Of a stretch of DNA of 64,000 nt, positions 36,483 to 58,749 are shown piece by piece (the stretch's first letter is position 1; every line of letters starts with the position of its first letter). Location: contig NZ_LT835159.1 of assembly GCF_900169715.1 (NCBI RefSeq), forward strand, positions 62,001 through 126,000. Direction: 5' to 3'. A model generated the notes under the pieces. The model was not told the origin of the DNA. It saw only the letters and a program-made list of their open reading frames with translations, and did not search any database. The DNA comes from Kocuria massiliensis (GTDB taxonomy: Bacteria; Actinomycetota; Actinomycetes; Actinomycetales; Micrococcaceae). The position numbers and the translations under genes were made by a program.

Positions 36483-36695
36483 TTCCCACCGGGATGGGTC
36501 TCTGATGCGGCCCTTCAGGCGTCCCTTGAGGCCAACGGTGAGTCCGCGTCACGTCAGCATCTGACCATTAATTCCCCGCAGGTCAAGGGCCATCCGCCGA
36601 CGTCCGGATACGCCGATGACCCGGTTAACACAGCCACCGGTAACTTCATTGAGCCCGAAACTGATCTCGAGTTTTATGGCCCAAGAGGACTTTGA
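36483..36695 (+). pseudogene. Remnant of the RHS toxin N-terminal region (DUF6531-like)
   Basis: In one frame, with no start codon, this stretch reads DDPVNTATGNFIEPETDLEF, the hallmark that opens the YD-repeat body of Rhs-type toxins. The frame stops at 36695, while the YD repeats continue in the next frame. The usual ~60-residue segment between this motif and the first repeats (with the Tyr-Asn-Ser pattern) is missing. A deletion plus frameshift therefore separates the real N-terminus from the long gene. Confidence 0.75.
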
Positions 36696-39600
36696 CGGTC
36701 ACATTCTGTCCGAAATGACTGAGCTTCTGGCACAGCACGAGGGCCAGAAGAACACCGCCCGCTCCGGCTGGGTGATTCGAGATAACGAGGGTGGCTGGTC
36801 CGCCTTTACTCTCAGTGGACAGTGGATGGGAGCCGGATCCGGCCCTGGCGCCACCATTGCGGCGTTGCGCGATCAGGACGGGGAAATTACCCGGCTTATT
36901 CACACTCGTGGACGATTCATCGATATTGAGTACCTTGAGGGGCGAGTGGCGGTGGCGAGGGCCTCCGACGGGCGTCGTCTCGAATACTTGTATGACGAAA
37001 ACACGAATCTGGTGCAGGTCCGTACCGAGGTCGGTACTCGCGAATACCGGATCGATGAGCAAGGACTCATTGCTGCCGTCGTTGCCGAAACAGGCGTCGT
37101 CGAGGTCACCAATACCTATGATCAGCAGGGTCGGGTGACCGGTCAGGTTTCCGAACATGGGCGTCGGATTCGGTATGGGTATTTGCCGGGCCGTGTCACG
37201 GTGGTTTCGGACGAGGACGGTGGCAATTCCAATACGTGGATCGCCGACCAGCGTGGTCGAGTGGTGGGAATCATCGATACGGATGACAACCGCCAGTCCA
37301 TGGCGTACGACAGCTTCGGTAACCGCGTCTCCGTGACCGAGCGTGATGGTTCGATCACCGTTCGTGGTTTTGATGAACGTGGTCGGATGACGCGTGAGGT
37401 GACTCCCGAGGGTGGGGACTTCACCTACGGATACGATGAGCAGGATCGTCCGACGACCGTCGTCACCGACTCCGGCGCCGTCGTGCAGTACGAGTATCAA
37501 GACGACGTCGAACGGAACCCCTCGGTCATCGTGGACCCTGCCGGCGGGCGTAGCGAACTCACGTGGGAGGACGGGCTCCTGCAGCAGGTTCAGGACCCGG
37601 AGGGTGTGTCGGTTCGTTTCGGCTACGACTCCTTGGGTGACCTCGTTTCGACAACCAATGCCGCCGGGGACACCGCACGATTGGTCCGCGACGACGCGGG
37701 CCGCGTGATTGAGGCTATCTCGCCGTCGGGTGCGCGCACTGCGTACGAATACGACGCCCTCGGATTGCTGACGTCGCGCGTTGATGCTGACGGCTCGCGC
37801 TGGCGGTTCGAACATGGCGCCGGGGGCCGAATCACGGCCATCGTGGATCCCGCTGGTGCCCGCACCGAATTTGAGTACGGCCCTTCGGGCGACCTGGTGG
37901 CGACGGTCGATCCCCTCGGACGTCGCATGTCACGCGTCTTCGACGAAATGGGCAACGTTGAGTCGCTGATCCTCCCTGACGATTCGGCATGGTCGTTTGT
38001 TCACGATGGGCTCTCGCAGGTCCGGAAGATTGTGGATCCCGCCGGTGGTACATGGTTGCGGAACTATGACCGCAATGGTGCGCTGACCTCGGTGACCGAT
38101 CCGACCGGCGTGACGGAGAGCGTCGACTACGACCGCACCGCGCGCTTTGACCAGGTCCGGGACGCCTTTTCTTCGGTTCGCACCGACTACGACCAATACG
38201 GTCGACCGAAGAAGACCACCGACGCCGATGGATCAGTGGAGCTGATCTCGTACGACGAGTGCGGTCGACCCGTGGAGTTGGTCGACGCCGAGGGTGGCTT
38301 GACCAAGATCGAGTACGACCTCGCGGGTCGAACCACGGCAATCACCACCCCCGGAGGCAAGACGTCTCGCTTCACCTACGACGCGTGTGGCCGTCCACAG
38401 ACTGAGGTAGAGCCCGACGGTGCCGTCACGCGCCTGGTCTACGACGCCGACTCTCGCGTGATTCAGCGGATCTTGCCGAGCGGCGACGTCGAGTCGGTGA
38501 TCTACGACGTCATGGGCCGGGTTGTTGAAGCGACCTCTGCCGCTGGCACCACGGCAAAGTACGGGTACGACAAGGTCGGGAACCTGGTCTACGTATCCGA
38601 CGGACGTTATGGGCAGCGCCGGTTCTCCTATGACGAGGCCGGCCAGCTAGTTCAAGCAATCAATGGCCTGGGCGGAAAGACTCATTTTGAGTACGACGCC
38701 CGCGGTCGACTGGTCCGCGTCACCGACCCGATGGGTGCGGTGAGCCGTCGCGTGTACAACGAGATGGACCAGGTCGTCGAATTGGTGGACCCGGCCGGAC
38801 GTGTCACCACCGGTGGTTATGACGCAGCCGGCCGTCAGCTCTGGCAGGTCGAACCGACCGGTCAACGCACGGAGTGGGCTTTTGACGAGGCGGGGTACGA
38901 GAAATCCGTGACTGTGGATGGCCGGTTGATTGCCGAGTCCATCCGCAATTCCGAATCACGCGACGTTGTACTGAACGACTACACATGCCCCGAGGCTAAG
39001 GCCGTTCACACGCTGAGCTACGATCGTCTAGGACGATTGATCCGCCGTGACCTGGAAACCCAGGGAGAACGTACCTCCATGGCATGGGGATACGACGCCG
39101 ACGGCGCTCGCACCTTCATGGACACCCCCGTTGGGCGCACGACGTATTCCTACGACGACGCCGGTCGCGTGGTTTCCGTTGATGCGCCTGAAGCCGGCGA
39201 AATCACGTTGAAGTACGACGCCGCAGGTCGCTTGGTGAAGTCCGTTTCTGGAGCCGGTGAGCAAACCTGGGAATACCGGGACGGGCAGATGGTGACCCAC
39301 CGGAGGGTTTCGCAGGAGGGCGAGTCGAGCACAACGCAGGTCTCCTACGACGGCGCTGGTCGGGTGGCTTCGGTTGATGAGTCTGACGGTGGTTTGACGG
39401 TCTACTCCTACGATGAAGCGTCGCAGCTGGTGGGGTCAAAGACCTCCGGGGCCGAGCGTATGGATCGCACGTGGGTCTATGACGTGGCGGGGCGCTTGGT
39501 CCGAGAATCACGCGATGGTGTGGAATTCTCGTACACCTACGACGTGGCTTCGCAGTTGTTGTCGGTTGTGGGTTCGGATGGTTCGGAAGCGTCGTTTGTG

Positions 39601-41196
39601 TATGACGGTTTGGGCCGTCGGGTTCGTGAGGTTCGTGCGGATGGTTCTGTGCGTGAGTTTGCGTGGGGTCCGACGGGGTTTGTGGAGTCTGTGGCCACCG
39701 AGGCTGCTGATGGTGGGTCGGTGTCTGCGGTGGATGTGTGGGTTGATGCGACTGGTGAGCCGCGTTGGGTGAATGGCACGGAGTTGCTGTGGGATTCGGC
39801 GTCGGTGGTGCCGGCATTGGCTGGTTTTGGCCAGCTGTCTGTGGTGGTTTCTGTTGCTGGTGTGGCTGTGGGGGATTCGTGGTCTGTTGCGGGGTGGAAG
39901 CCTGCTCGTGTGACGGAGGTTTCTGATCCGTGGTCGGTTCCGGTGGTGGGTGCTGATGTTGCTGGTTTCTTGGGCCGGGACTCTGCTGTTGGTCTGACGG
40001 CCGGTGGGGCTTTGAGTTTGGGTGGTTTGGAGTGGATGGGGGCTCGGGTGTTTGACCGGGGTTCTCGTGGGTTTTTGTCGGTGGATCCGTTGGATCCTGT
40101 GGTGGGTGCTGGTTGGTCGGGTAATCCGTATTCGTTTGCGGGGAATGATCCGGTGGGTGCGTTGGATCCGTTGGGGTTGTCTCCGATGTCGGCGGATGAG
40201 TTGCATGCGTATACGGAGGCGCGGAAGTCTCCGTTGGAGAAGGCTGCTGGTGCTGTAGGTAACTGGTGGAAAGATAATTGGGAGTATGTGGCCGCGGGGG
40301 CGGCCATTGTTGGCGGCGTCGCGCTGATGTGTACTGGAGTGGGTGGCGTTGCCGGTGTGGCGTTGATGGCTGGTTCTGGTGCGTTGCTCTCTGGCGGTGT
40401 TTCCGTGGCGTCGCAGAAGGCCACTAACGGAAGCGTTGATTGGAAGGCTGCTGGAAAGGACGCCCTGATCGGTGGGGCTACTGGCGCCATTGGTGGCGTG
40501 GGTATGGCCGTTGCCAAGGGAGCGACTGCGGGGATGGCTTCCGGTGGAACTCAGCTGGCGAAGGCTATGGGAGTTAATGCTGGTGTTCATGGCGCTGCTG
40601 GCGGTGTAGGGTCATCATTTCAGTATTTGGCAACCCATGGGTGGAAGATTGAGAATGGCCGAGACTTTGCGGGTAGCGTCGCAGGAGGCACTATATCCTC
40701 AGCAGCAGGAGCTAACTTGGGCCAGGCAAGTGGAAGTCTTGTGAAAAAATTCGGGCCGTCTGTGGAGAATAGTTCTGCCTTTAAGTCACTTCCGAGTAGT
40801 ATAACTAAAAAAATAGATCTACAAAAATCAACCGGAAATGTCGCCACTTCAGTAAACACTTTAGGATCGATGGGCGCCGGAGCAGGCGGATCTGTAGTTA
40901 ATGACGTTGTATCTGGCCGTGAGATAAATGGAGGGAATGCCCTTAGATCTGCAGCAACTTCAGGTGTATCAACCAAGGTCGGAGACAAGATTAACCACAT
41001 ACCTGGAGTCGGAAAGTATACAAATCAGACTGGAGTAACGACGCTCAAACAGATGCAAAATTTTGCACCAAGGTCTTGGAATGGAATGACAGACCTTTCC
41101 AAGAAAAATACCTACACCATGTATGGATCTGCAATCTCGGGCACGACGATAGGCTTGTCGGTAGATGCGGCCACAACAGCAATCATAGGCGGGTAA
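36616..41196 (+). CDS. RHS/YD-repeat polymorphic toxin, 5'-truncated
   Basis: A 1526-codon open frame. About 900 residues of YD repeats (YDxxGRxxxxxxxDG pattern, e.g. YDEAGQLVQAINGLGGKTHF) form the toxin-enclosing shell. The RHS core ends with 'RGFLSVDPLDPV', 'NPYSFAGNDPVGALDPLG'. The ~380-residue tip has a hydrophobic Gly/Ala-rich part (GALLSGGVSVASQ) and a variable Ser/Gly-rich end with no nuclease motif visible. The first ATG is out of frame with the true N-terminal motif, so expression as drawn is doubtful. A candidate immunity gene follows 5 nt later. Confidence 0.85.
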   Translation: MTRLTQPPVTSLSPKLISSFMAQEDFDGHILSEMTELLAQHEGQKNTARSGWVIRDNEGGWSAFTLSGQWMGAGSGPGATIAALRDQDGEITRLIHTRGRFIDIEYLEGRVAVARASDGRRLEYLYDENTNLVQVRTEVGTREYRIDEQGLIAAVVAETGVVEVTNTYDQQGRVTGQVSEHGRRIRYGYLPGRVTVVSDEDGGNSNTWIADQRGRVVGIIDTDDNRQSMAYDSFGNRVSVTERDGSITVRGFDERGRMTREVTPEGGDFTYGYDEQDRPTTVVTDSGAVVQYEYQDDVERNPSVIVDPAGGRSELTWEDGLLQQVQDPEGVSVRFGYDSLGDLVSTTNAAGDTARLVRDDAGRVIEAISPSGARTAYEYDALGLLTSRVDADGSRWRFEHGAGGRITAIVDPAGARTEFEYGPSGDLVATVDPLGRRMSRVFDEMGNVESLILPDDSAWSFVHDGLSQVRKIVDPAGGTWLRNYDRNGALTSVTDPTGVTESVDYDRTARFDQVRDAFSSVRTDYDQYGRPKKTTDADGSVELISYDECGRPVELVDAEGGLTKIEYDLAGRTTAITTPGGKTSRFTYDACGRPQTEVEPDGAVTRLVYDADSRVIQRILPSGDVESVIYDVMGRVVEATSAAGTTAKYGYDKVGNLVYVSDGRYGQRRFSYDEAGQLVQAINGLGGKTHFEYDARGRLVRVTDPMGAVSRRVYNEMDQVVELVDPAGRVTTGGYDAAGRQLWQVEPTGQRTEWAFDEAGYEKSVTVDGRLIAESIRNSESRDVVLNDYTCPEAKAVHTLSYDRLGRLIRRDLETQGERTSMAWGYDADGARTFMDTPVGRTTYSYDDAGRVVSVDAPEAGEITLKYDAAGRLVKSVSGAGEQTWEYRDGQMVTHRRVSQEGESSTTQVSYDGAGRVASVDESDGGLTVYSYDEASQLVGSKTSGAERMDRTWVYDVAGRLVRESRDGVEFSYTYDVASQLLSVVGSDGSEASFVYDGLGRRVREVRADGSVREFAWGPTGFVESVATEAADGGSVSAVDVWVDATGEPRWVNGTELLWDSASVVPALAGFGQLSVVVSVAGVAVGDSWSVAGWKPARVTEVSDPWSVPVVGADVAGFLGRDSAVGLTAGGALSLGGLEWMGARVFDRGSRGFLSVDPLDPVVGAGWSGNPYSFAGNDPVGALDPLGLSPMSADELHAYTEARKSPLEKAAGAVGNWWKDNWEYVAAGAAIVGGVALMCTGVGGVAGVALMAGSGALLSGGVSVASQKATNGSVDWKAAGKDALIGGATGAIGGVGMAVAKGATAGMASGGTQLAKAMGVNAGVHGAAGGVGSSFQYLATHGWKIENGRDFAGSVAGGTISSAAGANLGQASGSLVKKFGPSVENSSAFKSLPSSITKKIDLQKSTGNVATSVNTLGSMGAGAGGSVVNDVVSGREINGGNALRSAATSGVSTKVGDKINHIPGVGKYTNQTGVTTLKQMQNFAPRSWNGMTDLSKKNTYTMYGSAISGTTIGLSVDAATTAIIGG
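39355..40033 (+). repeat. 679-bp direct repeat, copy 1 (RHS core)
   Basis: The last part of the RHS body and core. The same sequence occurs at 49153-49831 on the same strand with no difference noticed in the stretches compared; the translations are identical. The edges are sharp: GCTGGTCGGG on the left and GGTTTGGAGT on the right. Confidence 0.85.
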
Positions 41197-41201
41197 GATC
41201 A

Positions 41202-42038
41202 ATGAAATTGAGTAGGCTAAAGCATGCGATCTTGCCGCTGGTAACCCTCGGAATTGTCTTTGTTCCATGGAATCGTTTAGATTTTTTAATGATCATTTCG
41301 CTGTCCGGATCTTGGATTATTGGTGCAGCAATTTCCATGATGTTAATTGGCACCCTGAGGAGAACAAAAGCTGCTCCGCTTATTTATTTCATCATGATTG
41401 CGTCTGTATTTGTCTTCATGAGCCTTGGGATTCGAGTGCATGGACGGAGTTTGAACCTGGCCTACCTAATGGGGGTCATGTCCGCGCTAAATCTATATAA
41501 TTTAATATTCGGCCCGGTGGTTGCAGACAAATATGACAAAAAAATTACATCTCTAAAAACTCCAAATGATGAATCCGATGGTCTGAGGCGGAATAGTTTG
41601 AAGTCTCAAACTCGGACATTGACGTCCAGAGTTCGAGTTCTGGATAAATGTTCTGGTGAATTTCATACAGGACAAATTGCGCAATTTGAAATGATTTTCC
41701 ATAGAGGGGCTTCCGAACTTGATAGTTCAAAGATTTCTTTGGAAGTTAACGGCACCCATGAGGAGTTCTGGATGCACGAATTTCTTGAGAAGCGATTCAA
41801 GAGTGGAAACGTAATTGAGCCGTGTGATGCGGGCTCTGAATCAATTTTCTCGCTGGTCTACCAAAAGGACCACGATGGATCGGACCTCGTGAATTGGCTC
41901 GACGAGTCGTCCTATGGCAACCTGATCTTCTTTTACCCGGACCGAAGTCGTGGAACGGCAATAGAGCTTGATGAGAGTCAGACATCTCGCTTCTTCGATT
42001 GGGTCGAAGGCATGGCATCTGCGCAATCTAAGGCATAG
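41202..42038 (+). CDS. Candidate immunity protein A (multi-TM + soluble domain)
   Basis: A 278-residue product. Four hydrophobic segments in the first ~100 residues (LPLVTLGIVFVPW, MIISLSGSWIIGAAISMMLI, IYFIMIASVFVFMSLGI, YLMGVMSALNLYNLIFG) precede a ~170-residue soluble domain ending 'FFDWVEGM'. It starts 5 nt after the Rhs stop, and its AT-rich codon use differs from the host. A homologue (51643-52434) follows a closely related Rhs tip. Immunity function is inferred from position and co-occurrence only. Confidence 0.7.
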   Translation: MKLSRLKHAILPLVTLGIVFVPWNRLDFLMIISLSGSWIIGAAISMMLIGTLRRTKAAPLIYFIMIASVFVFMSLGIRVHGRSLNLAYLMGVMSALNLYNLIFGPVVADKYDKKITSLKTPNDESDGLRRNSLKSQTRTLTSRVRVLDKCSGEFHTGQIAQFEMIFHRGASELDSSKISLEVNGTHEEFWMHEFLEKRFKSGNVIEPCDAGSESIFSLVYQKDHDGSDLVNWLDESSYGNLIFFYPDRSRGTAIELDESQTSRFFDWVEGMASAQSKA

Positions 42039-42425: not shown

Positions 42426-43733
42426 GTGCCTGACGCTACCTTCACGCGCCCTGACCTGACTACCTTCACCCGCCTCGACGGCCTCGGTCTGGAGGTCACC
42501 GGCCAGCTGCTCGAGCCTGACCGGTCCGTGCTGGCGTGCCGGGTCGTGGAGCCGGACGACTGGTGCAGGCGGTGCGGCTGCCAGGGCGTGCCCCGTGACA
42601 CGGTGAGCAGGGAGTTGGCGCACGAGCCGTTCGGGTGGCGCCCTACCACGCTGGTGCTCACCGTGCGCCGCTACCGCTGCAAGGAGTGCTCGCACGTGTG
42701 GCGTCAGGACACCACCGCTGCGGCGCCGCCGCGGGCCAAGATCTCCCGCGCCGGCCTGCGGTGGGGTCTGGTCGGGATCGTCGTCGGCCACCTGTCGATG
42801 GCCCGAGTTGCCGAAGGACTGGGCGTGGCGTGGAACACCGCCAACGACGCGGTCCTGGCTGAGGGCCGGCGTCTGCTCATCGAGGACCCGACCCGCCTGG
42901 ACGGTGTCAAGGTCGTCGGGGTCGATGAGCACGTGTGGCGGCACACCCGGCGCGGTGACAAGTACGTCACCGTGATCATCGACCTCACCCCGGTCCGGGA
43001 CGGCACCGGGCCCTCACGCCTGCTGGACGTGGTCGAAGGTCGGTCGAAGAAGGCGTTCAAGGACTGGCTGGCCGAGCGGGACCAGGCTTGGCGCGATGGG
43101 ATCGAGGTCGTGGCCATGGATGGGTTCGCGGGCTTCAAGACCGCCACCACCGAGGAGCTGCCGGACGCCGTCACGGTTATGGATCCCTTCCACGTCATCC
43201 GGTTGGCCGGGGACGCTCTCGATGAGTGCCGCCGCCGAGTCCAGCAGGAACTGCACGGACACCGCGGACGCAAGGGCGACCCGCTCTACACCGCGCGGCG
43301 GACCCTGCACACCGGGGCTGACCTGCTCACCGACCGCCAGCACGAGCGCCTTGACAAGCTCTTCGCTGGGGACCGGCACGTGCAAGTCGAGTGCACCTGG
43401 GGGATCTACCAGCGCATGATCTCCGCCTACCGTCACCCCGACCGGGCAGCCGGCCGCGTCGAGATGAGCTCCGTGATCGACGCCCTCGCCGACAGTGTGC
43501 CTGAGGCGTTGGTAGAACTGCGCAAGCTCGGCCGCACCCTGACCAGACGCGCCTGCGACGTCCTGGCCTACTTCGACCGGCCGCGCACGAGCAACGGACC
43601 TACCGAAGCCGTGAACGGTCGCCTCGAGCACCTGCGTGGCCTGGCCCTCGGCTTCCGCAACCTCACCAACTACATCGCCCGCGCACTCCTCGAAGCCGGC
43701 GGATTCAGACCACACCTACACCCCGAATTGTGA
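42426..43733 (+). CDS. ISL3 family transposase
   Basis: A 435-residue transposase. The N-terminal zinc-finger-like part CRRCGC...RYRCKECSHVW is followed by an HTH (MARVAEGLGVAWNTANDAVL) and the ISL3 catalytic core: first Asp in VVGVDEHVWRH, second in VVAMDGFAGF, Glu in GPTEAVNGRLE. It ends 6 bp before the right end of the element, so the frame reaches into the terminal repeat. Confidence 0.93.
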   Translation: MPDATFTRPDLTTFTRLDGLGLEVTGQLLEPDRSVLACRVVEPDDWCRRCGCQGVPRDTVSRELAHEPFGWRPTTLVLTVRRYRCKECSHVWRQDTTAAAPPRAKISRAGLRWGLVGIVVGHLSMARVAEGLGVAWNTANDAVLAEGRRLLIEDPTRLDGVKVVGVDEHVWRHTRRGDKYVTVIIDLTPVRDGTGPSRLLDVVEGRSKKAFKDWLAERDQAWRDGIEVVAMDGFAGFKTATTEELPDAVTVMDPFHVIRLAGDALDECRRRVQQELHGHRGRKGDPLYTARRTLHTGADLLTDRQHERLDKLFAGDRHVQVECTWGIYQRMISAYRHPDRAAGRVEMSSVIDALADSVPEALVELRKLGRTLTRRACDVLAYFDRPRTSNGPTEAVNGRLEHLRGLALGFRNLTNYIARALLEAGGFRPHLHPEL

Positions 43734-43739: not shown

Positions 43740-43747
43740 AGATTGGG
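43740..43747 (+). repeat. 8-bp target-site duplication, right
   Basis: AGATTGGG, identical to 42297-42304. Confidence 0.85.
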
Positions 43748-44208
43748 TGCGGCTCAAGGAAACATCCAGAATACTGGATCGTACCTGAATCAAGAAGGGT
43801 CACATGATTTTGGAGGAGCAGCACAGGCCTTTACAACTGGAGGGGTAGTTGGTGGGTATCCCCTCGATCCGAGGACCAAAACTCAGGGGTGTATCTGGGG
43901 CGAAAGGACGTGCTCCAACTGGTCTCGAAGCAGGAGGAGTTCGAAGCGGGTTTACGGACATGGGCATAAGCTCCATTCAAGGAAGTATCGCCGTGTCGTT
44001 GAACTATGCCGGGACGCCACGGGATAAAGGATTTGATCCTGTCACGGTAGGAGATAGCTTCATTAAGGGTTCCACTATGTCTGACGGGAAATGTGCATTG
44101 AAGAGTTTTGCGCCCGTAATGGGAGACGCCACTATGCAGGGGGAATGGTCGTGATAAGGGTACTGCTCAAAATTTGGTGAATCCCCTGGGGATTATGAGG
44201 TAATTAAC

Positions 44209-44592
44209 GTGCAAAATAAATATAAATTACCCTGGTTTCAACGAGCTCGAACGTACTGGATCCCCATTGGTGTTATTTTCATGATAATTGCGTCCGTTAT
44301 CGGAATAAATAAGCTGACTCATAGAATTGAAATATGTACAGTTGAAAGTTCCAGTTCGACAATGGGAACAAATGGGATCGCAGGTGGGGAAATTAGTGGC
44401 ATTAAAATTGTTAATAAAGACTGTCCGGATATATCAATAGGCAAAAGCAATTGGAGTAAAGGGGAGTCGGAAAATCAGGCGAAGCGCCTCACGCCTGGAA
44501 AGAAATATAAATTCACGATTGATACCATCCAGTTTAATTGGATTTTCCATACTTGGGTTGGGAAAGATTTTGAGGGTCCTGTGCAAGAGTAG
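44209..44592 (+). CDS. Candidate immunity protein B (single-TM, two-Cys family)
   Basis: 127 residues, GTG start with GAGG upstream. One TM helix (about 17-35, IPIGVIFMIIASVIGIN) is followed by a soluble domain. Two cysteines, C43 and C72, are 29 residues apart and flank a Gly-rich stretch (GIAGGEISGIKIVNKDC). The end has KKYKFTIDTIQF. The same layout recurs in six other genes of the array. It lies 54 bp after decayed tip B. Very AT-rich. Confidence 0.65.
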   Translation: MQNKYKLPWFQRARTYWIPIGVIFMIIASVIGINKLTHRIEICTVESSSSTMGTNGIAGGEISGIKIVNKDCPDISIGKSNWSKGESENQAKRLTPGKKYKFTIDTIQFNWIFHTWVGKDFEGPVQE

Positions 44593-44968: not shown

Positions 44969-46352
44969 CCTCCGGCCAGCTGTCTGTGGTGGCTTCTGTT
45001 GCTGGTGTGGCTGTGGGGGATTCGTGGTCTGTTGCGGGGTGGAAGCCTGCTCGTGTGACGGAGGTTTCTGATCCGTGGTCGGTTCCGGTGGTGGGCGCTA
45101 ATGTTGCTGGTTTCTTGGGTCAGGGTTCTGTTGTTGGTCTGACGGCCGGTGGGGCTTTGAGTTTGGGTGGTTTGGAGTGGATGGGGGCTCGGGTGTTTGA
45201 CCGGGGTTCTCGTGGGTTTTTGTCGGTGGATCCGTTGGATCCTGTGGTGGGTGCTGGTTGGTCGGGTAATCCGTATTCGTTTGCGGGGAATGATCCGGTG
45301 GGTGCGTTGGATCCGTTGGGGTTGTCTCCGATGTCGGCGGATGAGTTGCATGCGTATACGGAGGCGCATAAGAGTCCGTTGGAGAAGGCTACTGGTGCTG
45401 TAGGTAATTGGGTGGGGGATAACTGGAAGTATGTGGGCGCGGGGGCGGCGATCGGTCCCGGCATTGTGGGTGCTGCGTTGACGTTTACCGGAGTTGGGCG
45501 CCGGTTGGGTTGGCGTTGATGGCTGGATCGGGCGCGCTACTTTCGGGTGGCATTTCGCTTGCGAGTCAGAAGGCGCAGGATGGGGTGGATTGGGGCCAGG
45601 TGGGTAAGGATACGTTGATTGGTGGCGTATCTGGTCTTGCCGGTGGCGGCGCGGCTATGACGGCAGGCAAGATAGCTGGCGGTGCTATTTCGACGGTGGG
45701 AAGCAAAATTGTTCCATCCGGTTCAGTCGTGCAAAAGATTGGGACGGGCGCGTCGAAGGCTTGGGCAGCTACCAAGAACTTCATAAAGAAACCAATTCCA
45801 TTCACGAAGGTGTCAACACCCGGGGTCAATTGGGTTACCAAGGCTGGAGGTGGCATCGAAGCTAAAGGTCAAGGGGTCATGCAGAAGGGAATGGAGGTAG
45901 CTCAACAGCATCACTTCCGGCGGACCCTACCTGGCCAGATGATTGAGGGAAGCGTTGGGAACTCTGTCAACAATGCGCTTAGTTATGCAACCGGTCCTGG
46001 TCCGCATACACCGGGAGGCTTAGTTGGTTCGGCGGCAGGGGGAGTGGCAACAGGCTCCATGTCTCCCGTATCTGGAAAGATGCTCAAGGTGGCTTCTCCT
46101 AAAATTATGGGGAATACCGGTCCCGATGGTTCGGTAATAAACCGGGCCTTAAGCTCTGAAGCATCGACGGGAGTTACCAATTGGGTCGGTAGTAGAGGCA
46201 TCGACTATGGATCCGGAGTTAGTAACTATTATCTAACGGACCACCCAGGAGCGGACGGAGGCTCGTGGCATGATGCCAATCAGGCGGGACTTAAAAGCGC
46301 TGCTAAGGGACAATCCAAGGCGTTTTCGAAGAAAATCATTGATGCTAGATAA
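44969..46352 (+). pseudogene. Displaced Rhs core + tip C (frameshifted)
   Basis: Begins abruptly inside the RHS core (GQLSVVASVAGVAVGDSW) and reads through GFLSVDPLDPVVGAG, NPYSFAGNDPVGALDPLG and SPMSADELHAYTEAHKSP. The frame is lost near 45500 (TGVGRRLGWR, stop 45519) and resumes in another frame from 45510 (MALMAGSGALLSGGISLASQ) to 46352. The tip ends with TNWVGSRGIDYGSGVSNYY and a Lys/Ala-rich tail. No promoter or start for the core. A related, more decayed tip lies before immunity I. Confidence 0.8.
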
Positions 46353-46358
46353 TATAGG

Positions 46359-48728: not shown

Positions 48729-48860
48729 ATACCGCGCCCGTTCCAGCAGGGTGGGGCTGATGTGATGGGTTGGTACGAACGGTCTCGCACCAGCCCCATT
48801 TTTGCTGTTCCTATCTACTTAAAATAAAAGTTGAAATGCTAGCTTCAGGAGAAGTGTCCC

Positions 48861-49831: not shown

Positions 49832-50213
49832 TGATGGGGAAGGTGCGCGGCAACTGGGGGTCGGTGTAGCAACTGGTGGGGCTTTCAAGGGAGGTCATAC
49901 GGCCATCAAGCCATCAGGCCAGTCACTTGTTGGGGACCTAGAGTCTAAATTGAAACTAGGTTCAGTTGGTGACGGATTAGTTGGTCCATCACATAAAGCG
50001 TCATGGGGCCAAGTTGCACTCAGAAAGACATCCAATACTATGTATGATTCGATGTTCTCAGGTACGCAATCTTTCTCGAATACGAAGATGAATGTCGGAG
50101 ACTTTTCAAAGGCTAAACGAGATGGAGCTGAATCAGTGCTAAGCATGGCAATAACTGGAAATGTACCGGTCAACACAGGGCTCGGAAAGCGTGCCACTGC
50201 AGCATCGAACTAA
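49832..50213 (+). pseudogene. Displaced Rhs tip E (frameshifted from core)
   Basis: Right after the core copy, a different frame reads GVGVATGGAFKGGHTAIKPS, then 'SLVGDLESKLKLGSVGDGLVG' style text, and ends NTGLGKRATAASN at 50213. The hydrophobic pretoxin part is missing. A decayed relative lies at ~55.9-56.28 kb (shared: MIGEDFSKTQRDG versus MNVGDFSKAKRDG). Confidence 0.65.
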
Positions 50214-50231: not shown

Positions 50232-50612
50232 GTGGGAGAAAAAAATGGCAATGTTGTAGGTAAAGTAGTTTTTTTGATAGTAGCTATATCTGGATTGATA
50301 CTTGTTATAACAACATTATTTGGAGTTCCAATAAAAAACGCTTACAATAAAAATCACTATTCTGAACAAGCGTGTAAAGTTACACATGTTGAGAAAGTGC
50401 AGACGGGGACCCCCAAGAGTGGAGGTAGCGGCAGCGTGAATATCGAGTCTAGCGATTGTGAACCCATTGAGATGATAAAAACAGTTGATGGAAAATCAAT
50501 CAACGACGTGGCTAAACAGGTCAAGCCTGGTCGCGAATACAAGTTCCAATTCGGCGATATTCAGTGGCTCAATAATCCAAAGGTAGCTCAAAAATTTGAG
50601 GAAATGCACTAG
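50232..50612 (+). CDS. Candidate immunity protein E (single-TM, two-Cys family)
   Basis: 126 residues, GTG start with AAAGGT 6 nt upstream. TM helix at about 10-31, then NKNHYSEQACKV with C48 and C76 (28 apart) around PKSGGSGSVNIESSDC, and the C-terminal 'GREYKFQFGDIQW'. Very close to gene H (56305). It starts 18 nt after tip E. Confidence 0.72.
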   Translation: MGEKNGNVVGKVVFLIVAISGLILVITTLFGVPIKNAYNKNHYSEQACKVTHVEKVQTGTPKSGGSGSVNIESSDCEPIEMIKTVDGKSINDVAKQVKPGREYKFQFGDIQWLNNPKVAQKFEEMH

Positions 50613-50784
50613 GCGACCCAATTTTCGCAGTCACTCCCACCCGTTTCTAGATGATTCTGGATAGTGGAGGCTGATCGAACACAACCTAGATGGCTTAGCA
50701 ATGTGCTACTCCAAGCGTGCGCCAAACGTTCATTATCGAGATTAGAGGAGTTGCGCTAAGCGAATCGGAGTTGGTCGCGTTACC

Positions 50785-51643
50785 AGCGTGGCGTTGATGG
50801 CTGGTTCTGGTGCGCTGCTCTCTGGCGGTGTTTCCGTCGCGTCGCAGAAGGCCACTAAAGGAAGCGTTGATTGGAAGGCTCCTGGAAAGGATGCACCAAT
50901 TGGTGGGGCTACTGGCGCCATTGGTGGCGTGGGTATGGCCGTTGCCAAGGGAGCGACTGCGGGGATGGCCTCCGGTGGAACTCAGCTTGCGAAGGCAATG
51001 GGAGTTAATGCTGGTGTTCATGGCGCTGCTGGCGGTGTAGGGTCGTCATTCCAGTATTTGGCAACCCATGGGTGGAAGATTGAGAATGGCCGAGACTTTG
51101 CGGGTAGTGTCGCGGGAGGCACGTTGACTTCAGCTGCTGGCGCGAACATTGGTCAGGCAAGTGGAAGTCCCGTGAAAAAGGTCGGACCGTCTATTAAGAA
51201 CAGTTCTGCCTTTAAGTCCATGCCTAGTAGCGTCACGAGCAAAATCGATCTAAAGACTTCTACTGGGAATGCTTCGAATGCCATTAAGACACTCGAGGAC
51301 ATGGGAGTTGGCGCTGGAGGCTCGGTTGTCTCAGATGCAATCTCGGGCAGAGAAATCAGCGGCAAGAGTGCATTAGTGTCCGCAGGAACTTCCGGTATGT
51401 CATCGAGGGTTACAGACTATACCGCTAATAAATTCGACGTAGTCGGAAATATGACCAGTCAAACGGGCGTGAACACATTGAATCAAAATGAAGGTGGGTA
51501 CTCCACATAGCCGGAACGGATTAACAAATCTTCAGGGACACAATACAAAGACTCTATATGGGTCTGCGATTTATGGCACAGGGGTTGGAACTGGAATATT
51601 TATGGCTGCTGACAAGTTACAAGAAATTGCAGGGGTAAACTAG
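50785..51643 (+). pseudogene. Displaced Rhs tip F (frameshift near end)
   Basis: Starts within the hydrophobic pretoxin part (GVALMAGSGALLSGGVSVAS equivalent) and matches the tip of the long Rhs gene over its length (HGWKIENGRDFAGSVAGGT). The frame stops at 51510; the correct end continues in another frame (TKTLYGSAIYGTGVGTGIF ... QEIAGVN) to TAG 51643, which overlaps the GTG of gene F. No core or start remains. Confidence 0.8.
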
Positions 51644-52434
51644 TGCGAGTTGCTAAACACTGCCTTGCGCTTTCTGTCTGCTTTGCGATAGCCATGTATC
51701 CATGGAGCCATCTGACTGCTCACGTGGTGTTCGTGAAAATCGGGGTTTGGTTGCTCGGAATTGCGATTGCTGTTTGTGTGATGCGCATATTTGGCCATAC
51801 CAAATATGGGTTCCTGGCCTACATTTTTGTGTTTGGGACATTGTTTGTCTACATATCACTCAACCTGCGCGTAGAAGGCGTTCCGACAAGTATCTCCTAC
51901 GCAGCTGGAATATTCGCATATATGGATGTCTACTCCCTTATTTTTGTTTCAAAAAAATCTAAAAATACCAAAATCTCTACGAGAAATGAAATTTACCAGC
52001 CCAAAAGACCAAACTTAATAATCGTAGGATTCGAAATTTCGAAACAAGGGGACGTATCGCCTGAAGCAACTCCGGTCGAGTGGAGTATTGACGTGGAATC
52101 GTATATGGATAAACGTTTCATGACAAGGGCGTCGATGAATTCCTCGAAGCATACGTTAGAATTCTACCTGTCGGAGTTGGACGCCGACTTTTTCGAAAAA
52201 GGTAAAATCGTAGAGGATTTCAGGAATCCAAAAGACGTCACATTCATAACTATTTACAGACAAAAATATCATTCGGGAACAGATTTGGAGTCATATTTTG
52301 GAGATTCTAAATCGGGCAGTCTCTCGATATACTCTCCTGAGAATGTAGATAGTATGGGAATATTATTTAAGAAAGATTCGACTGACGAATTTATGACATG
52401 GGTTTCAGAACTTTTGCAGGGAACGAACAAGTAG
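51643..52434 (+). CDS. Candidate immunity protein F (multi-TM + soluble domain)
   Basis: 263 residues, GTG overlapping the stop of tip F. Four hydrophobic segments in the first 100 residues and then a soluble domain. Aligns with gene A: Pro-Trp in the first segment (FAIAMYPWSHL versus FVPWNRL), the patch IYRQKYHSGTDL versus VYQKDHDGSDL, and the end FMTWVSEL versus FFDWVEGM. Because A and F follow the two related tips, tip and partner have diverged together. Confidence 0.72.
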   Translation: MRVAKHCLALSVCFAIAMYPWSHLTAHVVFVKIGVWLLGIAIAVCVMRIFGHTKYGFLAYIFVFGTLFVYISLNLRVEGVPTSISYAAGIFAYMDVYSLIFVSKKSKNTKISTRNEIYQPKRPNLIIVGFEISKQGDVSPEATPVEWSIDVESYMDKRFMTRASMNSSKHTLEFYLSELDADFFEKGKIVEDFRNPKDVTFITIYRQKYHSGTDLESYFGDSKSGSLSIYSPENVDSMGILFKKDSTDEFMTWVSELLQGTNK

Positions 52435-53330
52435 TTTCTGTGGCACGGGTAAAATATAAAATTCTCATTATTGCCGCCCGAAAACACTTTGCAATAAGGT
52501 CGTCACAAGTAGGGGTACCTATTGTAGATAGAGGCGTCAGTTTCTAATTAGAGGAAAGTTCCGGCTGACCGGCATTCGGAGCCGCATGACGGGGCGGTTG
52601 CAATGAGGCGGCCTCGCTTGCCCTGTCTCACATTTACAACAGCGTGGCCTGAAGGCCGAGGGATCATGCACATGCACCTTAGGTGCGGGGTTTCCTCGGT
52701 CCTGAATACTTTCCTGTTCATCAATGATGATGGTGTTAGGTGGATCTTTGACGAGGATCGACACATGATTTCCTCTTATGCTCGACCAGACTGGGTCTGC
52801 GGCGAAGCAGAATTGTTCTGGTTTGTCGTGGAAACAGGCGATTAGGCCCGGTTCTGGGAACCGTCCCGATAGGTGCTCCAGTCAGGCGCGGATGATGAGG
52901 ATTCGGTCGCCAAGGTTCGCGCAATTCTCGAGAACGTGGACTCTTGGATGGCTTCTGCCCGCAGCAGCCGTATATCGGGAATCGATCCAGTGACAGGAAG
53001 ACACGGTGGTGCACGAAGCACTGATAAGACGGCTTTACCCGCTTTGTCCACGAGCGGGGCTGGTCGGCCGATCCTGAACATACTTCGGAACGCGTCGTCG
53101 TGGCACGTGCCTCAGAAGGTAAGCGAAGGGACAACCTCTGCGACGAAAACATCTAAGTGGTGAAAGCCTTCTAGAAGCCCGGCACCCAGGAATGTGACAG
53201 TCGCCCGGCTAACCATAGAAGCCCCGTCCGATCGGAGAGGGTATTCCTGAATGCCGCCGGCTTATTGGTGCCTGTCCGAAGGCTAGTTGGCAGCCGGGTG
53301 GCCCCGGTTGAACTGTCTGGTGGTCTTACA
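52435..53330. other. Unexplained segment between modules F and G
   Basis: About 900 bp with no gene that can be supported. Part of it (52600-53160) is more GC-rich than the modules, has open frames on both strands (e.g. 52603-52845 +, ending WVCGEAELFWFVVETGD) and looks like worn coding DNA of foreign or host origin. From 53340 onward decayed RHS core text begins. Confidence 0.4.
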
Positions 53331-54490
53331 GCTTACCTAACGACGAAGCTTCGCAGTTGTTGTCGGTTGTGGTTACGAAATGGTTCTGTGCGTGGGGTCC
53401 GACGGGGTTTGTGGTGTCTGTGGCCACTGAGGATGCCGATGGGGGGTGTTGCAGGGTGGAAGCCCGCTCGTGTGACGGAGGTTTCTGATCCGTGGTCGGT
53501 TCCCGTGGTGGGTGCTGGTTGGTCGGGTATTCCGTATTCGTTTGCGGGTAATGATCCGGTGGGTGCGTTGGATCCGTTGGGGTTGTCTCCGATGTCGGCG
53601 GATGAGTTGCATGCGTATACGGAGGCGCGGAAGTCTCCGTTGGAGAAGGCCAGGGGCGCTGTATGGAATTGGGTGGGGGAGACTGGGAGTACCTAGCCCC
53701 AGGGGCCTCGATAGTTGGCGGTGGATTTTTGATGGCTACCGGGGTTGGTGGACCCATTGGAAATGGCGATGTGGTTCGGCGGATTTAATGTTGCTTCGAA
53801 GAAATTCACCACCAGAGAAGTTAACTGGAAGTCGGTTGCTGTGGATACTGGGTTGAGGGCTATGGGAGGGCCGATTCCTAAGGCGGTTGGGCTAGTAGGA
53901 AAGCAGGCTGTTTCATCTCTCACGAAGGGGACAGGTAGGGCGCTGATCTCGAAGGTGAGTGTTGGGGTGGCTGAGAAGTCTGCTTCGAAGGTGGGGCAGT
54001 TCGCCGGTAGTAGGACTGCTAGGGAAGTTGGAAAGGCTAATTCAGGCGGCATTGAGCAGGGAAATCAAATGCCCTCAATTACGACGTAGTTACAGATGAT
54101 CCAAATAGGACATATGCCGAAGGGTGCAGGCAAGACCCAATTGAAGCGGTGACAGGAAGAGTATTTAATGGTGGGCAGAAAGCAACCAAGCCATTAATCA
54201 GTAAGGTATTTTCAAAATTGGATTCAGTAAAGGAGTTTGGTGCGGAAAAGGCGGAACTGGTCTAAAAAAGCATACTGCTAATAACATGAATATCGTTACA
54301 AAAAGACTGGAAAAACTCTTGGAAATTCGTCAATAAATAGTGGACCAACATTCGGAAATACTCTATTAACTACGGAGATATTGATAAGACAACAACGCCG
54401 TCCGGTTCGTCTGCCGTGAAGTCAACCCTATCGACACACATTCCAGATAATACAAGCTATGGATTTTCAGCCAATGCTACGCATAAATAG
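53331..54490 (+). pseudogene. Displaced Rhs core + tip G, heavily decayed
   Basis: Pieces of RHS core with internal deletions (SQLLSVV, GWKPARVTEVSDPWSVPVVG, then PYSFAGNDPVGALDPLG) lead to SPMSADELHAYTEARKSP, then a frameshifted pretoxin part and a tip (53745-54089, GGFNVASKKFTTREVNWKSV). Further frameshifted text continues to TAG at about 54490. At least four frame breaks. Confidence 0.7.
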
Positions 54491-54519
54491 GGTTTATGAA
54501 AGGATCTTACAAATAAAAA

Positions 54520-54903
54520 ATGAAAAACGAAAAAAAGAATCAATTATACGGAATTACGCTACTGATAGCCATCGTCTTGGGTGCATTGATACTGGCATAT
54601 TTTACTGTTTGGCCACTAATTATTCAACAATACAATAAGAGCCATTTTGTTGAAAAGACTTGCCGCGTAGAAGAGGCTAATTATACAGACGGTGGAAGTT
54701 TTACTGGTGGTGGGGGTGGAGCCTGGTTGGAGTTAAAGACCAAAGAGTGCGGGGATATTAAGATGCGAAAAACAAATGACGGTAAATCGGTAGGAGACCT
54801 AAGGAAAATGGTTAAGAGTGGCAAGGTCTACAAATTCCAATTTGGCGACCTCAAATTACTAGGATCCAGGGACAAGGCCCAAAATGTGCAAGAGATAGAC
54901 TGA
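54520..54903 (+). CDS. Candidate immunity protein G (single-TM, two-Cys family)
   Basis: 127 residues. TM at about 10-34, then YNKSHFVEKTCRV with C48 and C77 (29 apart) around a Gly-rich loop (FTGGGGGAWLELKTKEC), and the C-terminal KVYKFQFGDLKLL shared with genes E and H. It remains fully open although its tip is badly decayed. Confidence 0.72.
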   Translation: MKNEKKNQLYGITLLIAIVLGALILAYFTVWPLIIQQYNKSHFVEKTCRVEEANYTDGGSFTGGGGGAWLELKTKECGDIKMRKTNDGKSVGDLRKMVKSGKVYKFQFGDLKLLGSRDKAQNVQEID

Positions 54904-55700: not shown

Positions 55701-56281
55701 CTTGTGGTGGATGATTGGCTTGATGCACGGTGATGATGCCGGTTGCTGGTGTGCCTGCGGGGATGCGTGGGAAGCGATTGGTGACGAAGGGCGACTCGGT
55801 GTTGGGTTCTGGAAGTGGGGTGCGTCGGTCAAGTCGGCAGCCGGTGGTAGTGCGGAACAGAGGGGCGTCGAAGGTGGGGAACTATGTGGTTCCTGATGAG
55901 ATATATCCTTTCGGGAAGGCGCAGGGTAATTGGGTATCGGTGTGGCGACTGGTGGGGTCTTCAAAGGGGAGGGGGTAGGGCCCTAACGCCTACGACCCAG
56001 AAGACAATAGGAATGGTTGATTCTAAACTCGATTTAGGTCCCGTAAAGGGGCTCCTGGACAATCATTATCATAAAGCGTCTAGGGGGTGCCCTGAGAAAG
56101 ACAGTGAATGCGGGGATGGATTCGACATCCTCAGGTATGCGGTCGTTTTCTAATACGTATATGATTGGTGAAGACTTTTCAAAGACTCAACGAGATGGAT
56201 TCGGATCGGCGCCAATTACGCGAATCGCGGACGATTTACCGGATAATACAGAACCTGGAAAACATGCGGTCAAGGTCGTCA
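55701..56281 (+). pseudogene. Displaced Rhs tip H, heavily decayed
   Basis: Scrambled pieces resembling tip E: a segment near 55935-55960 (GVATGGVFK-like), HHKAS equivalent near 56075, and MIGEDFSKTQRDGFGSAPIT to EPGKHAVKV. Several frame breaks, no core. Followed by gene H. Confidence 0.6.
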
Positions 56282-56304
56282 ATTACAAAAATGGGAGGAT
56301 ATTC

Positions 56305-56685
56305 GTGAAAGCAAAAAGAGAGGGGGTGCTAGGATCAATAATTGTGCTTACCTTAGCTGCGCTAGGCATATTGCTTCTTGTGGCGATGCTTGTAGGGATG
56401 CCGATTAAGAACGTTTATAATAAGAGTCACTATTCTGAACAAGTGTGTAAAGTGACGAAGGTTGAAGAACACAGCGGGGGAACCCCGAAGAGCGGCGGTT
56501 CAGGTCGGGTCGACATTGAGTCGAGCAACTGCGACAAATTTGAGATGCGAAAAACCGTCGATGGAGAATCGATTAGCGATGTAGCTCAACAGGTCAAGCC
56601 AGGTCGCGAGTATAAGTTCCAATTCGGAGATATTCAGCTGACCAGCAACCCAGCGACAGCTCAGAAATTCGAAGAACTTCACTAG
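56305..56685 (+). CDS. Candidate immunity protein H (single-TM, two-Cys family)
   Basis: 126 residues from GTG 56305, with GGGAGGA 6 nt upstream; the frame is open further upstream but through decayed tip text. TM at about 10-31, YNKSHYSEQVCKV with C48 and C76 around PKSGGSGRVDIESSNC, and GREYKFQFGDIQL at the end. Very close to gene E, with several substitutions spread over the length, so an old duplication. Confidence 0.72.
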   Translation: MKAKREGVLGSIIVLTLAALGILLLVAMLVGMPIKNVYNKSHYSEQVCKVTKVEEHSGGTPKSGGSGRVDIESSNCDKFEMRKTVDGESISDVAQQVKPGREYKFQFGDIQLTSNPATAQKFEELH

Positions 56686-56699
56686 CCAACCTCATCTAC

Positions 56700-57208: not shown

Positions 57209-57592
57209 TTGCATAAAAAACGATCCCTAAAGGGAGCCGTAGGACTATTTGTTACTGCCTGTCTGCTAATAGCGGTTATAGCATTTCCCGGAATCAATAT
57301 TGCCAGTATGATCATAAACAAATTTATCCACAATACGATTACGTGTACGATAATAGGGTCGGAGATCACTAACCAGTCCGGGGCGGGAAGTGTTTCTGCA
57401 ACTACCAGAAGTCTTCATATCAAAACGAAAGAATGTGGTTTGGTGGTCATGGGAAGGACCCACGTCGAAGGTCAGTCACTAGAGAGCCTGTCAGACTCGT
57501 TAAAGGAAAGAGTCGGAGACCAGGTGCAAATTGAGGTTGGGGCATGGAGCCTGCGTAAAGACGAAAAGTCTGGATATAGAGTTGATCTTTAG
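57209..57592 (+). CDS. Candidate immunity protein I (single-TM, two-Cys family)
   Basis: 127 residues, TTG start with AAAGGG about 9 nt before. TM at about 9-36 (VGLFVTACLLIAVIAFPGIN), then NKFIHNTITCTI with C46 and C76 (30 apart) around SGAGSVSATTRSLHIKTKEC, KECGLVVM and a C-terminal VQIEVGAWSLRKDE. The TTG could instead be a later start, but none fits the TM start better. Confidence 0.7.
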   Translation: MHKKRSLKGAVGLFVTACLLIAVIAFPGINIASMIINKFIHNTITCTIIGSEITNQSGAGSVSATTRSLHIKTKECGLVVMGRTHVEGQSLESLSDSLKERVGDQVQIEVGAWSLRKDEKSGYRVDL

Positions 57593-57890: not shown

Positions 57891-57899
57891 TTGGTTTTT

Positions 57900-58329
57900 C
57901 CTCGCGACTGGTGTGGCAACAAGGAATGCTCGTCGGCTGCATTGGCGTTGATAGTTGGTCCCGGTGTGCTGGTTTGTTCGTGGGTACTTCTCTTGCGACC
58001 CAGAATGCACACGGTGACGCGGACTGTGGCAAGGTTGGTAAGACCGCCGGCTGGGCGATACAGACGGTGGGCTGAGTAAAGAATTCTATGAAGAATCCGG
58101 TTTAAGAGCTGAAGGCATCTACTCCTGGCGCGAAAATGACGGCGGAGGTCGGTCGGGAACTCTCTGGTAAGGGTCTGAATACATTGAAACACGTGGGTGG
58201 GGCGGCCGATCAGTAGTGGCTCCGGACGACGGTCACGGGTTCGATGATCGTGAGTCGAACCAGCGGGTCGTCCATTAACGGCATGAACAAGTCTCTGAGC
58301 GGGTACCATCCGAAGGGCGAATATCGAAG
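57900..58329 (+). pseudogene. Displaced Rhs tip J, heavily decayed
   Basis: A frameshifted echo of the pretoxin part (57938-58060: GCATTGGCGTTGATAG... corresponds to the VALMAGSGALLSGG segment) and of tip C (58080-58150: KNSMKNPV / STPGAKMTAEVG matches KNFIKKPI / STPGVNWVTKAGG). Many stops. Confidence 0.6.
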
Positions 58330-58749
58330 ATGAAAACGATAGATAAAAAGCCAAAGAAATTAAGAGTTTTGAATAAGATCCTAATACTTTTGGCATTCGC
58401 TGCATTTTTCGTTCCGGTTACTATGTTTTTTGGTGGGGGAGTTTTATATAAGTATATAAACGACCATTTTCAAGAAAATAAAGACTGCAAAATTAATTCC
58501 GTGGAACTTCGGGATGACAACGTCGGAGGTGGTTCGGTATCAGTAACGAAGAAGGTTATTAGTGTAAAGACCGCAGACTGCGGGGATGGATACATAGATA
58601 ATGTAACTGACCAAGGTGTTACCTTCAAAGAACTTGCCGACATCCTTGAAAGGAATGAGGGGGAATCTGTAAGCCTTTCCATTGGAATATTGAACTGGGA
58701 TGGAGACTCTTATATCAAGAAGGTCAATGGTTTAGATCAATTGAGGTAG
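58330..58749 (+). CDS. Candidate immunity protein J (single-TM, two-Cys family)
   Basis: 139 residues, ATG with GAAGGG upstream. Basic N-terminus, long TM (about 16-40), then FQENKDCKI with C53 and C84 (31 apart) around DDNVGGGSVSVTKKVISVKT, and a C-terminal 'VSLSIGILNWDGDSY' like genes C and I. Last member of the array. Confidence 0.72.
   Translation: MKTIDKKPKKLRVLNKILILLAFAAFFVPVTMFFGGGVLYKYINDHFQENKDCKINSVELRDDNVGGGSVSVTKKVISVKTADCGDGYIDNVTDQGVTFKELADILERNEGESVSLSIGILNWDGDSYIKKVNGLDQLR

Follow-up and report, generated by a model that had tools for sequence, protein, structure and literature searches.

Orphan Rhs modules with orphan immunity genes reportedly occur in Salmonella and Serratia; these are Rhs tip-immunity modules like those considered here, in Gram-negative hosts and, in the Serratia case, said to belong to a T6SS. 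Homogeneous polyimmunity loci, as described by Zhang et al. (2012; PMC3482391), are tandem, same-strand arrays of paralogous immunity genes that form a stock against foreign toxins and are never interrupted by toxin cassettes. The orphan exiCD genes of staphylococcal T7SS antitoxin islands are described as membrane immunity genes carried by genomes that lack the toxin or indeed the T7SS structural genes (PMC12744356), and the esaG, tsaI and tipC strings as immunity genes for T7SS toxins in tandem, paralogous but not identical (PMC9484751). In the account of the Listeria T7SSb pair LrhA/LrhI, an Rhs protein with DUF6531 is encoded beside essC, and LrhI (261 aa) has one N-terminal transmembrane segment and an outer globular part, with orphan copies in other strains (PMC10327511). 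The pore-forming Tse5, by its description an Rhs shell with a membrane-acting tip, can be taken as a model for envelope-acting tips, although it is a T6SS protein (PMC10684867; PMC9637101).

The window (the whole 64,000-nt stretch of Kocuria massiliensis DNA analysed here) contains a long rhs remnant followed by displaced modules and ten partner genes, named A to J. It probably represents the remains of an EssC-linked (type VII-like) Rhs toxin locus that is becoming an immunity-only, or polyimmunity, locus. Like the loci described in PMC3482391 it carries tandem same-strand immunity paralogues; unlike them, it has tip remnants alternating with the partners, an intermediate arrangement. Compared by description, exiCD differs in that it concerns staphylococcal LXG toxins and polytopic immunity proteins, whereas here the toxin is an actinobacterial Rhs protein and the main immunity-like family (IMM1) is single-pass; the esaG, tsaI and tipC strings carry other names, are found in firmicutes and, in the account given in PMC9484751, come with no series of toxin decay. 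LrhI is set apart, again by description, by its length from the 126-140 aa of IMM1, and its orphan copies are presented in PMC10327511 singly and not as arrays. What looks new is not polyimmunity, tip displacement or orphan immunity to T7SS toxins, all of them known already, but IMM1 itself, the setting in actinobacteria and the stage between the two kinds of locus. A literature search, with most subscription journals outside its reach, found no description of the locus or of IMM1.

All ten partner ORFs, which lie on the plus strand, are open without a stop or frame break, as the initial annotation had noted. They fall into three families. Seven belong to IMM1: B (44209..44592), C (46365..46787, with a start codon chosen among several), E (50232..50612), G (54520..54903), H (56305..56685), I (57209..57592) and J (58330..58749). 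The second family consists of A (41202..42038), a membrane protein with a C-terminal domain, and F (51643..52434), together with the partner found in the same-genus genome G195; the third is the polytopic protein D (48017..48394). The partner catalogue had been called largely undescribed, and this holds for the libraries searched, but the genes (7 + 2 + 1) are not of many kinds. IMM1 members are predicted single-pass membrane proteins with a positive N-terminus inside and a predicted outer domain of ~85 residues that contains two invariant cysteines. The family set comprises 43 of 49 listed relatives, near-duplicates and two short ones being left out, plus the seven window proteins. Searches of these 50 members against Pfam and NCBIfam gave scattered single-member matches only, none better than E 0.002; PADLOC matched 0/10 window partners at E 0.1, and a PDB sequence search returned only weak matches to receptor transmembrane stretches (E 0.3 or worse). 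A fold search with the outer domain gave OB-like rows that lie within the described background of the tool. The seven would most likely work on the outside, by intercepting Rhs tips that act on the envelope or membrane. Gly-zipper motifs in the tips were not above shuffles, so it is the partners that point to a membrane action of the tips. A promoter and terminator scan was uninformative: the two strands together held 31 promoter-like sites, where shuffled sequence gave 20.0 (sd 4.9).

Next, we examined where partner homologues lie in other genomes. Of 78 Rhs-core loci, 29 contain IMM1 ORFs, 54 in total and every one on the Rhs strand; 51 of them follow the core match, 50 at ~5 kb or less. IMM1 abuts the tip stop in 26/76 tips, with distances measured to stop-bounded frames rather than start codons and with the G195 rhs gene counted twice (as loci L102 and L134), both times as a miss. 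In other genomes, then, the family shares the orientation of the tips and sits immediately behind them, as an immunity family is expected to do. For D, a single pair of neighbouring genes in locus L159 matches both tip and partner: the tip homologue is near full length, and the partner homologue, a weak match, overlaps the D-type rhs at its stop. Partner homologues are thus tied to Rhs tips elsewhere, for IMM1 and weakly for D, in keeping with the immunity-like role that the initial annotation had proposed. Each tip type seems to go with its own partner family: A and F tips with the second family, tip D with partner D, and C-like tips with IMM1. Six more genus genomes carry IMM1 with no Rhs match and no full EssC match; in one of them, G081, the IMM1 match is weak (E 6e-4). 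A class-wide search, with at most 10 candidates scored per genome, gave matches in 3/394 genomes, namely the own genome and two weak partial matches.

The displaced modules all lie on the plus strand downstream of partner A. Pieces of the 3' half of the main rhs gene (39.3-41.1 kb) are repeated at ~44.97, 47.0, 49.1-49.9, 50.8 and 53.4 kb with 61-100% identity, varying by piece. The repeated core text reported earlier was found again: the main ORF and modules C, D and G contain PYSFAGNDPVGALDPLG and SPMSADELHAYTEA, and modules A, C, D and F contain GALLSGG. An ISL3-family transposase gene (42426..43733, plus strand; Pfam DDE_Tnp_ISL3) separates partner A from a presumed module B remnant (43743..44154), whose open pieces do not all share a frame. 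Module C (44974..46352) consists of core and tip C with one frame change between them, the core having 97% identity with the main copy across 300 nt; module D (47013..48005) has a partial core and an open tip D. A true rhs 5' end with ~257 bp of upstream DNA is located at 48604..49150 (87% DNA identity to G195 14437-13891) and contains the ORF of the N-terminal domain (48861-49175). Module E (49150..50213) is an internally deleted rhs core joined to this 5' piece and followed by an open tip E remnant. Module F (50749..51640) carries an A-type tip with one frame change near 51.5 kb, and module G (52615..54265) a YD piece (G195 13225-12644), a core piece and tip G with at least two frame changes. 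The tip H remnant (55918..56298), homologous to tip E, has two frame changes, and tip I is a weak trace (56863-57039), a single 59-codon, 27% match to tip C. The count of about nine displaced tips in the initial annotation was partly inferred from the nine partners. It stands for tips C, D, F and G, which have homologues in other genomes, and for E and H, which are recognisable through each other; B and J were not recognised, and I has its one weak match. Two of the displaced units hold more than a tip: E includes the rhs 5' end with upstream DNA, and G a mid-gene YD piece. Tips B, E, H, I and J had no homologue among the matches listed (161 tip pieces of other genomes).

Decay is unevenly distributed between tips and partners. 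Frame changes are present in four of the six testable tips (C, F, G and H), tips D and E being without one, versus 0/10 partners with a stop or frame break (Fisher by hand, 15/1820 = 0.008), so the reported decay of tips beside retained partners applies to most, not all, testable tips. Counts of 5/7 versus 0/10 (p 0.0034) and 4/5 versus 0/9 (p 0.005) were replaced by this lower one, because the insertion sequence at module B may lie outside any tip. We estimated dN/dS for 18 pairs, hand-picked among the matches listed. Eight IMM1 pairs from four orphan genomes, which gave neither an Rhs nor a full EssC match, have values of 0.06-0.39, significantly lower than 1 in every pair (p<0.01), as averages that include time before toxin loss. 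The window pairs C/I and E/H and the pair of B with its G195 orthologue are well below 1; they are old and saturated, and the window values may reflect selection in donors. In Rhs-bearing genomes three pairs were distinguishable from 1 (0.16-0.17) and four were not (G200/G199, 0.56; Curtobacterium, 1.08, 0.56 and 1.27; dS 0.02-0.07). For the decayed E/H tips the lowest grid value was at dN/dS 0.2 (0.1 did not converge), and a value well below 1 fits these tips too, so dN/dS does not tell tips from partners. The partner values in the window and in the orphan genomes are thus low, as expected of the immunity stock that the initial annotation supposed to be kept by selection after toxin loss, but those of the window, from saturated pairs and beside E/H tips that are low as well, do not place the selection later than displacement. 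One could argue that the partners are under no selection at all and are intact merely through recent decay and the small target size of short genes. Identity between core copies and the main rhs reaches 99-100%, which suggests recent displacement, and intact partners could then partly mean little time; moreover, the G195 orthologue of partner B is broken by an in-frame stop, so partner retention is not universal. We consider this explanation unlikely in view of the contrast between broken tips and unbroken partners and of the low values in the four orphan genomes.

An archive for toxin switching, in which displaced tips and partners serve as recombination donors that restore old tips to rhs, is somewhat less likely again. 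With 80-100% identity to the main copy, the core pieces of modules C, E, F and G are similar enough for homologous exchange, and tips C and D are open to their ends. On the other hand, the tips are decaying, modules H, I and J have partners although no core match was found in them, and a switched tip would be undeliverable by the EssC route, since the main rhs is without its N-terminal part and EssC was not found.

The main rhs remnant (36498..41196, plus strand) carries RHS repeats (PF05593, E 4.7e-114) and tip A, and the window displays the features of the Rhs/YD class: YD/RHS repeats, a conserved core ending in DPxG and a variable C-terminal tip. The remnant had been taken for one long toxin gene, a description that does not survive comparison with the syntenic locus of G195. 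There, rhs is intact, starts at 14180 and has a conserved N-terminal domain; here, ~254 N-terminal codons are absent from the main copy, the piece adjoining the missing 5' end is out of frame when judged against the intact relative, and the longest ORF (36616-41196, 1526 aa) is without the N-terminal part of its relatives, a piece of which was displaced to the module E region described above. The domain is present in 74/75 Rhs ORFs of at least 1700 aa in relatives, a count that takes the G195 gene, the source of the query, twice (L102 and L134). A Pfam search assigned it to no family, and its WXG-like appearance was judged by eye only. DUF6531, present in G195 and L104, is not among the matches listed for the longest ORF of the window with a limit of E 1.

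The same comparison accounts for the upstream side. The order in G195 is flank, EssC island, intact rhs, partner, flank, and the window has the same flanks: a rhomboid-family gene (35415..36227, plus strand; Pfam Rhomboid) on the left, colinear with G195 up to 36485, and FMN oxidoreductase and galactokinase-like genes (59325..63997, minus strand) on the right, also colinear. At the junction (36485..36498) blastn joins G195 26508, on the rhomboid side, to 13418, inside rhs, so that both the island and the first ~254 rhs codons are absent. The G195 island (~12 kb, directly upstream of rhs) encodes an EssC-type ATPase with FHA and FtsK domains, a Ser/Thr kinase and a DUF805 protein; two small ORFs upstream of rhs had no Pfam match. 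A search of the own genome with the G195 protein found no full EssC, linked to rhs or elsewhere, and only two FtsK-type matches, both of kinds found across the genus. EssC-type ATPases are present in 12 of 35 genus genomes, G195 among them, defined by a near-full-length match to TIGR03924 (E 1.6e-95 or lower) in an open frame of ~1430-1480 aa and set apart by a gap from partial FtsK-type matches (best E 6.7e-61); by its own cut-off this EccC model matches in none of the 35. Rhs is found in 10/12 EssC-positive versus 3/23 EssC-negative genomes (Fisher p 8e-5). YukD (PF08817) had no match in the own genome and is a poor marker, having matched only B. subtilis among 14 controls; EccB (PF05108) matched none of the 35 genomes, but none of the controls either. 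We call the island type VII-like on the strength of one ATPase, and the connection between EssC and Rhs is one of gene linkage, making secretion of Rhs by the EssC system putative. That the locus is still a working weapon, its 1526-aa ORF translated from an internal start and leaving the cell another way, would fit an uninterrupted ORF of this length that carries tip A and has a partner beside it, and is nevertheless very improbable, given the missing domain that nearly all long relatives have, the missing DUF6531 match and the failure to find EssC.

Under the preferred reading of an EssC-linked Rhs locus turning into an immunity-only one, rhs cassettes of tip and immunity gene would have been gained by recombination in the conserved core, and the EssC island and toxin start lost later. 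With both lost, the toxin would not be exportable by the EssC route; the tips would then decay, and the partners would persist because they protect against related toxins of neighbours. We lean slightly towards a more general view, namely that polyimmunity loci can arise by subtraction from an EssC-linked Rhs locus: the machine and toxin start are lost, the tips decay, and immunity genes are kept under selection until toxin-free arrays such as that of genome G132 result, with the window as an intermediate and the single-pass, two-cysteine family guarding the outward side of the membrane against a class of Rhs tips common to several actinobacterial genera. The locus thereby suggests how bacteria may acquire stocks of antidotes against weapons that they no longer use, and with it one can test whether protection against an abandoned weapon is still paid for. 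It also draws attention to IMM1 as an undescribed, immunity-like family that has a simple signature and follows partner rules. The stage seen in the window, for which an intact syntenic relative is available, connects displaced toxin cassettes with toxin-free immunity arrays, which had been described apart. In G132, six IMM1 genes form a run (L112) that has no match to the window core, pretoxin or YD queries, although a ~1.1 kb gap (9828-10913) could hold a core-less decayed tip. This six-gene run fits the description of homogeneous polyimmunity loci given in PMC3482391.

Comparison with the syntenic locus of a same-genus relative, G195, indicates how the rhs array of the window differs from an intact one. 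The flanks are colinear on the left (about 3.1-36.5 kb of the window) and on the right (59.3-64.0 kb). Between these flanks G195 carries an island encoding an EssC-like ATPase (1430 aa, with FHA and FtsK domains), a serine/threonine kinase, a DUF805 protein, and two more large proteins; on the basis of the ATPase alone, the island is provisionally assigned to a type VII system. The island is followed by an intact rhs of 1899 aa, and then by a partner gene of the A/F family and a gene of the family named here IMM1, the orthologue of partner B with an in-frame stop (L102:7142-7660), which adjoins the intact rhs. The left flank of the window stops at 36485 and homology resumes at 36498, which is 762 bp inside the G195 rhs; G195 13249-12917 has no counterpart at the window main rhs, and the first piece of the latter lies in a different reading frame from the long ORF (36616-41196). 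What the initial annotation took for one long toxin gene is thus broken and lacks its 5' end when compared with the intact G195 gene. Among relatives, 74 of the 75 Rhs ORFs that reach 1700 aa (the query's own gene counted twice) have an N-terminal domain that is absent from the window main ORF. A Pfam search with the window copy of this domain returned no family, and it appears WXG-like by its look alone.

The displaced rhs 5' end and the roughly 257 bp that precede it are found at 48604-49150 (87% identity to G195), fused at 49150-49839 to a segment from late in the gene. Since the 5' end is joined to this segment, module E represents an rhs gene with an internal deletion. Module G contains a mid-gene piece at 52615-53193. 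Simple tip displacement was rejected as the origin of modules E and G, since it leaves just core 3' ends and tips and both modules carry more.

A near-full-length EssC/EccC-type match is present in 12 of the 35 genus genomes. Rhs was found in 10 of these 12, versus 3 of 23 EssC-negative genomes (Fisher p 8e-5): K. massiliensis itself, G197 (one fragment), and G217. The EssC-positive genomes without an Rhs match are G147 and G212 (72% complete). The K. massiliensis genome (rated 99.78% complete, 4 contigs) gave two partial FtsK-type matches of kinds seen genus-wide and no near-full-length EssC/EccC-type match; the G195 EssC as query detected only the same two. Judged from the sequence, the secretion machine is apparently gone from this genome.

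IMM1 occurs in 16 of the 35 genus genomes, nine with EssC and seven without. Six of the seven (G081, G101, G132, G207, G208, and G218) are also without an Rhs match, K. massiliensis being the exception. G132 has six IMM1 genes within 4 kb, and the 18 kb around this run gave no match to the core, pretoxin, or YD queries from the window. An IMM1 run is syntenic between G206, where it lies about 6 kb from an EssC gene, and G207, which has no Rhs or EssC matches; this pair may be another instance of the loss seen in the window. Adjoining the G207 run (L093:9798-15242) are repeated membrane-protein genes of about 220-270 aa, several starting like MRTFLIIFWG, which are possibly another immunity family; similar repeats occur in a G101 locus (L090). 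At family level, 16 of 197 genomes, belonging to 6 of 32 genera, have IMM1; at class level, a run of lower sensitivity detected it in 3 of 394, namely K. massiliensis and two genomes with weak partial matches.

The expectation that partner homologues accompany Rhs tips in other genomes was borne out for IMM1. An Rhs-core scan found 129 relatives, and 78 loci from actinobacterial records were kept. IMM1 ORFs are present in 29 of the 78 loci (by record title, Curtobacterium, Microbacterium, Frigoribacterium, Frondihabitans, Leucobacter, Arthrobacter, Enteractinococcus, and one Microbacteriaceae isolate); all 54 ORFs are on the Rhs strand, and 51 follow the core match, 50 of them at no more than about 5 kb from it. 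In genus and scan loci together, IMM1 frames begin no more than about 120 nt from the tip stop, or overlap it, in 26 of 76 tips. Among the matches listed and examined, seven tips resemble tip C along the greater part of its length, and six of these are directly followed by IMM1 (L104, L105, L109, L110, L114, and L120; the exception is L173). Tip D matches the tip of locus L159 nearly end to end (39% identity), and partner D has its best match elsewhere, a weak one (E 1e-3), in a frame that overlaps the stop of that tip. In L164, L166, and L170, from Curtobacterium records and a Microbacteriaceae isolate, a single long rhs ORF is followed by a tight tandem run of four to five IMM1 ORFs.

Selection was estimated by pairwise codon likelihood on 18 pairs of our choosing. 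Within the window, omega is 0.09 for C/I and about 0 for E/H (dS not bounded), and it is 0.10 for B against the interrupted G195 copy. Eight pairs from G207, G132, G208, and G101 gave 0.15, 0.39, 0.15, 0.11, 0.11, 0.06, 0.13, and 0.23, each of them below 1 (p<0.01). For seven pairs taken from genomes that carry Rhs, the values were 0.17, 0.17, 0.16, 0.56, 1.08, 0.56, and 1.27, the last four not different from 1 (dS 0.02-0.07). Neutral evolution of the partners, which the initial annotation had set against immunity retention, disagrees with all eight pairs from genomes without an Rhs match and is compatible with four of the seven Rhs-bearing pairs. The omega averages also cover time before toxin loss. 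For the window, the contrast in lesions is the better evidence: tips C, F, G, and H carry frame changes, versus none seen in tips D and E or in the ten partners (modest, p about 0.008, computed by hand). Recent displacement could account for part of this contrast. The retention rule is not simple, as the partner B orthologue of G195 is broken.

Partners B, C, E, G, H, I, and J can be aligned as a single family, IMM1. A and F (25% identity to each other) form a second, with a member in G195 and no match outside the window and G195 among 113 loci searched; D is a third. The seven window IMM1 proteins have a net positive N-terminus and one predicted TM helix, followed by a domain. An alignment of 50 members shows two invariant cysteines, together with two glycines that are almost invariant. 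For partner C, AlphaFold predicts a helix (16-53) and a beta domain (mean pLDDT of the model 84.8); the structural matches are OB-like, at background level. Pfam and NCBIfam searches of the 50 members gave scattered single-member matches only, and PADLOC matched none of the ten window partners. Left of the locus, an ORF at 33708-34538 (minus strand, opposite another ORF) has a sub-threshold Imm49 match of 20.7 bits against a cut-off of 30.1, which could be chance. Most likely, each partner would be anchored in the cytoplasmic membrane, its domain predicted to face outside, where it may stop an envelope- or membrane-acting tip sent by a related EssC-positive neighbour, both target and protection being putative. 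The same reasoning is applied to Listeria LrhI, described as having a TM segment near the N-terminus, a globular part outside, a likely envelope target, and orphan copies elsewhere (PMC10327511).

The concept itself is known from accounts of polyimmunity loci (PMC3482391), of orphan T7SS immunity genes carried by genomes that lack T7SS (PMC12744356), and of tandem immunity strings (PMC9484751). Unlike these, the window is at a transitional stage in which remnants of tips persist among the immunity genes, and it adds an undescribed immunity-like family and an actinobacterial EssC-Rhs association.

The long Rhs ORF and recurring pieces of its 3' half lie within 36.5-58.7 kb. A DNA repeat search of the window gave nine repeat families with reference copies of 64-300 nt (smaller families down to 59 nt), the copies being 61-100% identical and spaced 1.7-10.4 kb apart; two of the families are partner E/H DNA. 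Modules C, D, and G share with the main ORF the core peptides quoted in the initial annotation; its GALLSGG text is found in A, C, D, and F, and all ten partner ORFs (A-J) are open as described. An ISL3-family transposase gene (42426-43733) lies inside the array. G+C is 41-49% in many 1-kb steps between 41 kb and 59 kb, versus 54-65% in the remainder of the window. GC skew is positive (up to 0.36) in the core repeats and module tails at 39-58 kb, exceeding that of the rest of the window.
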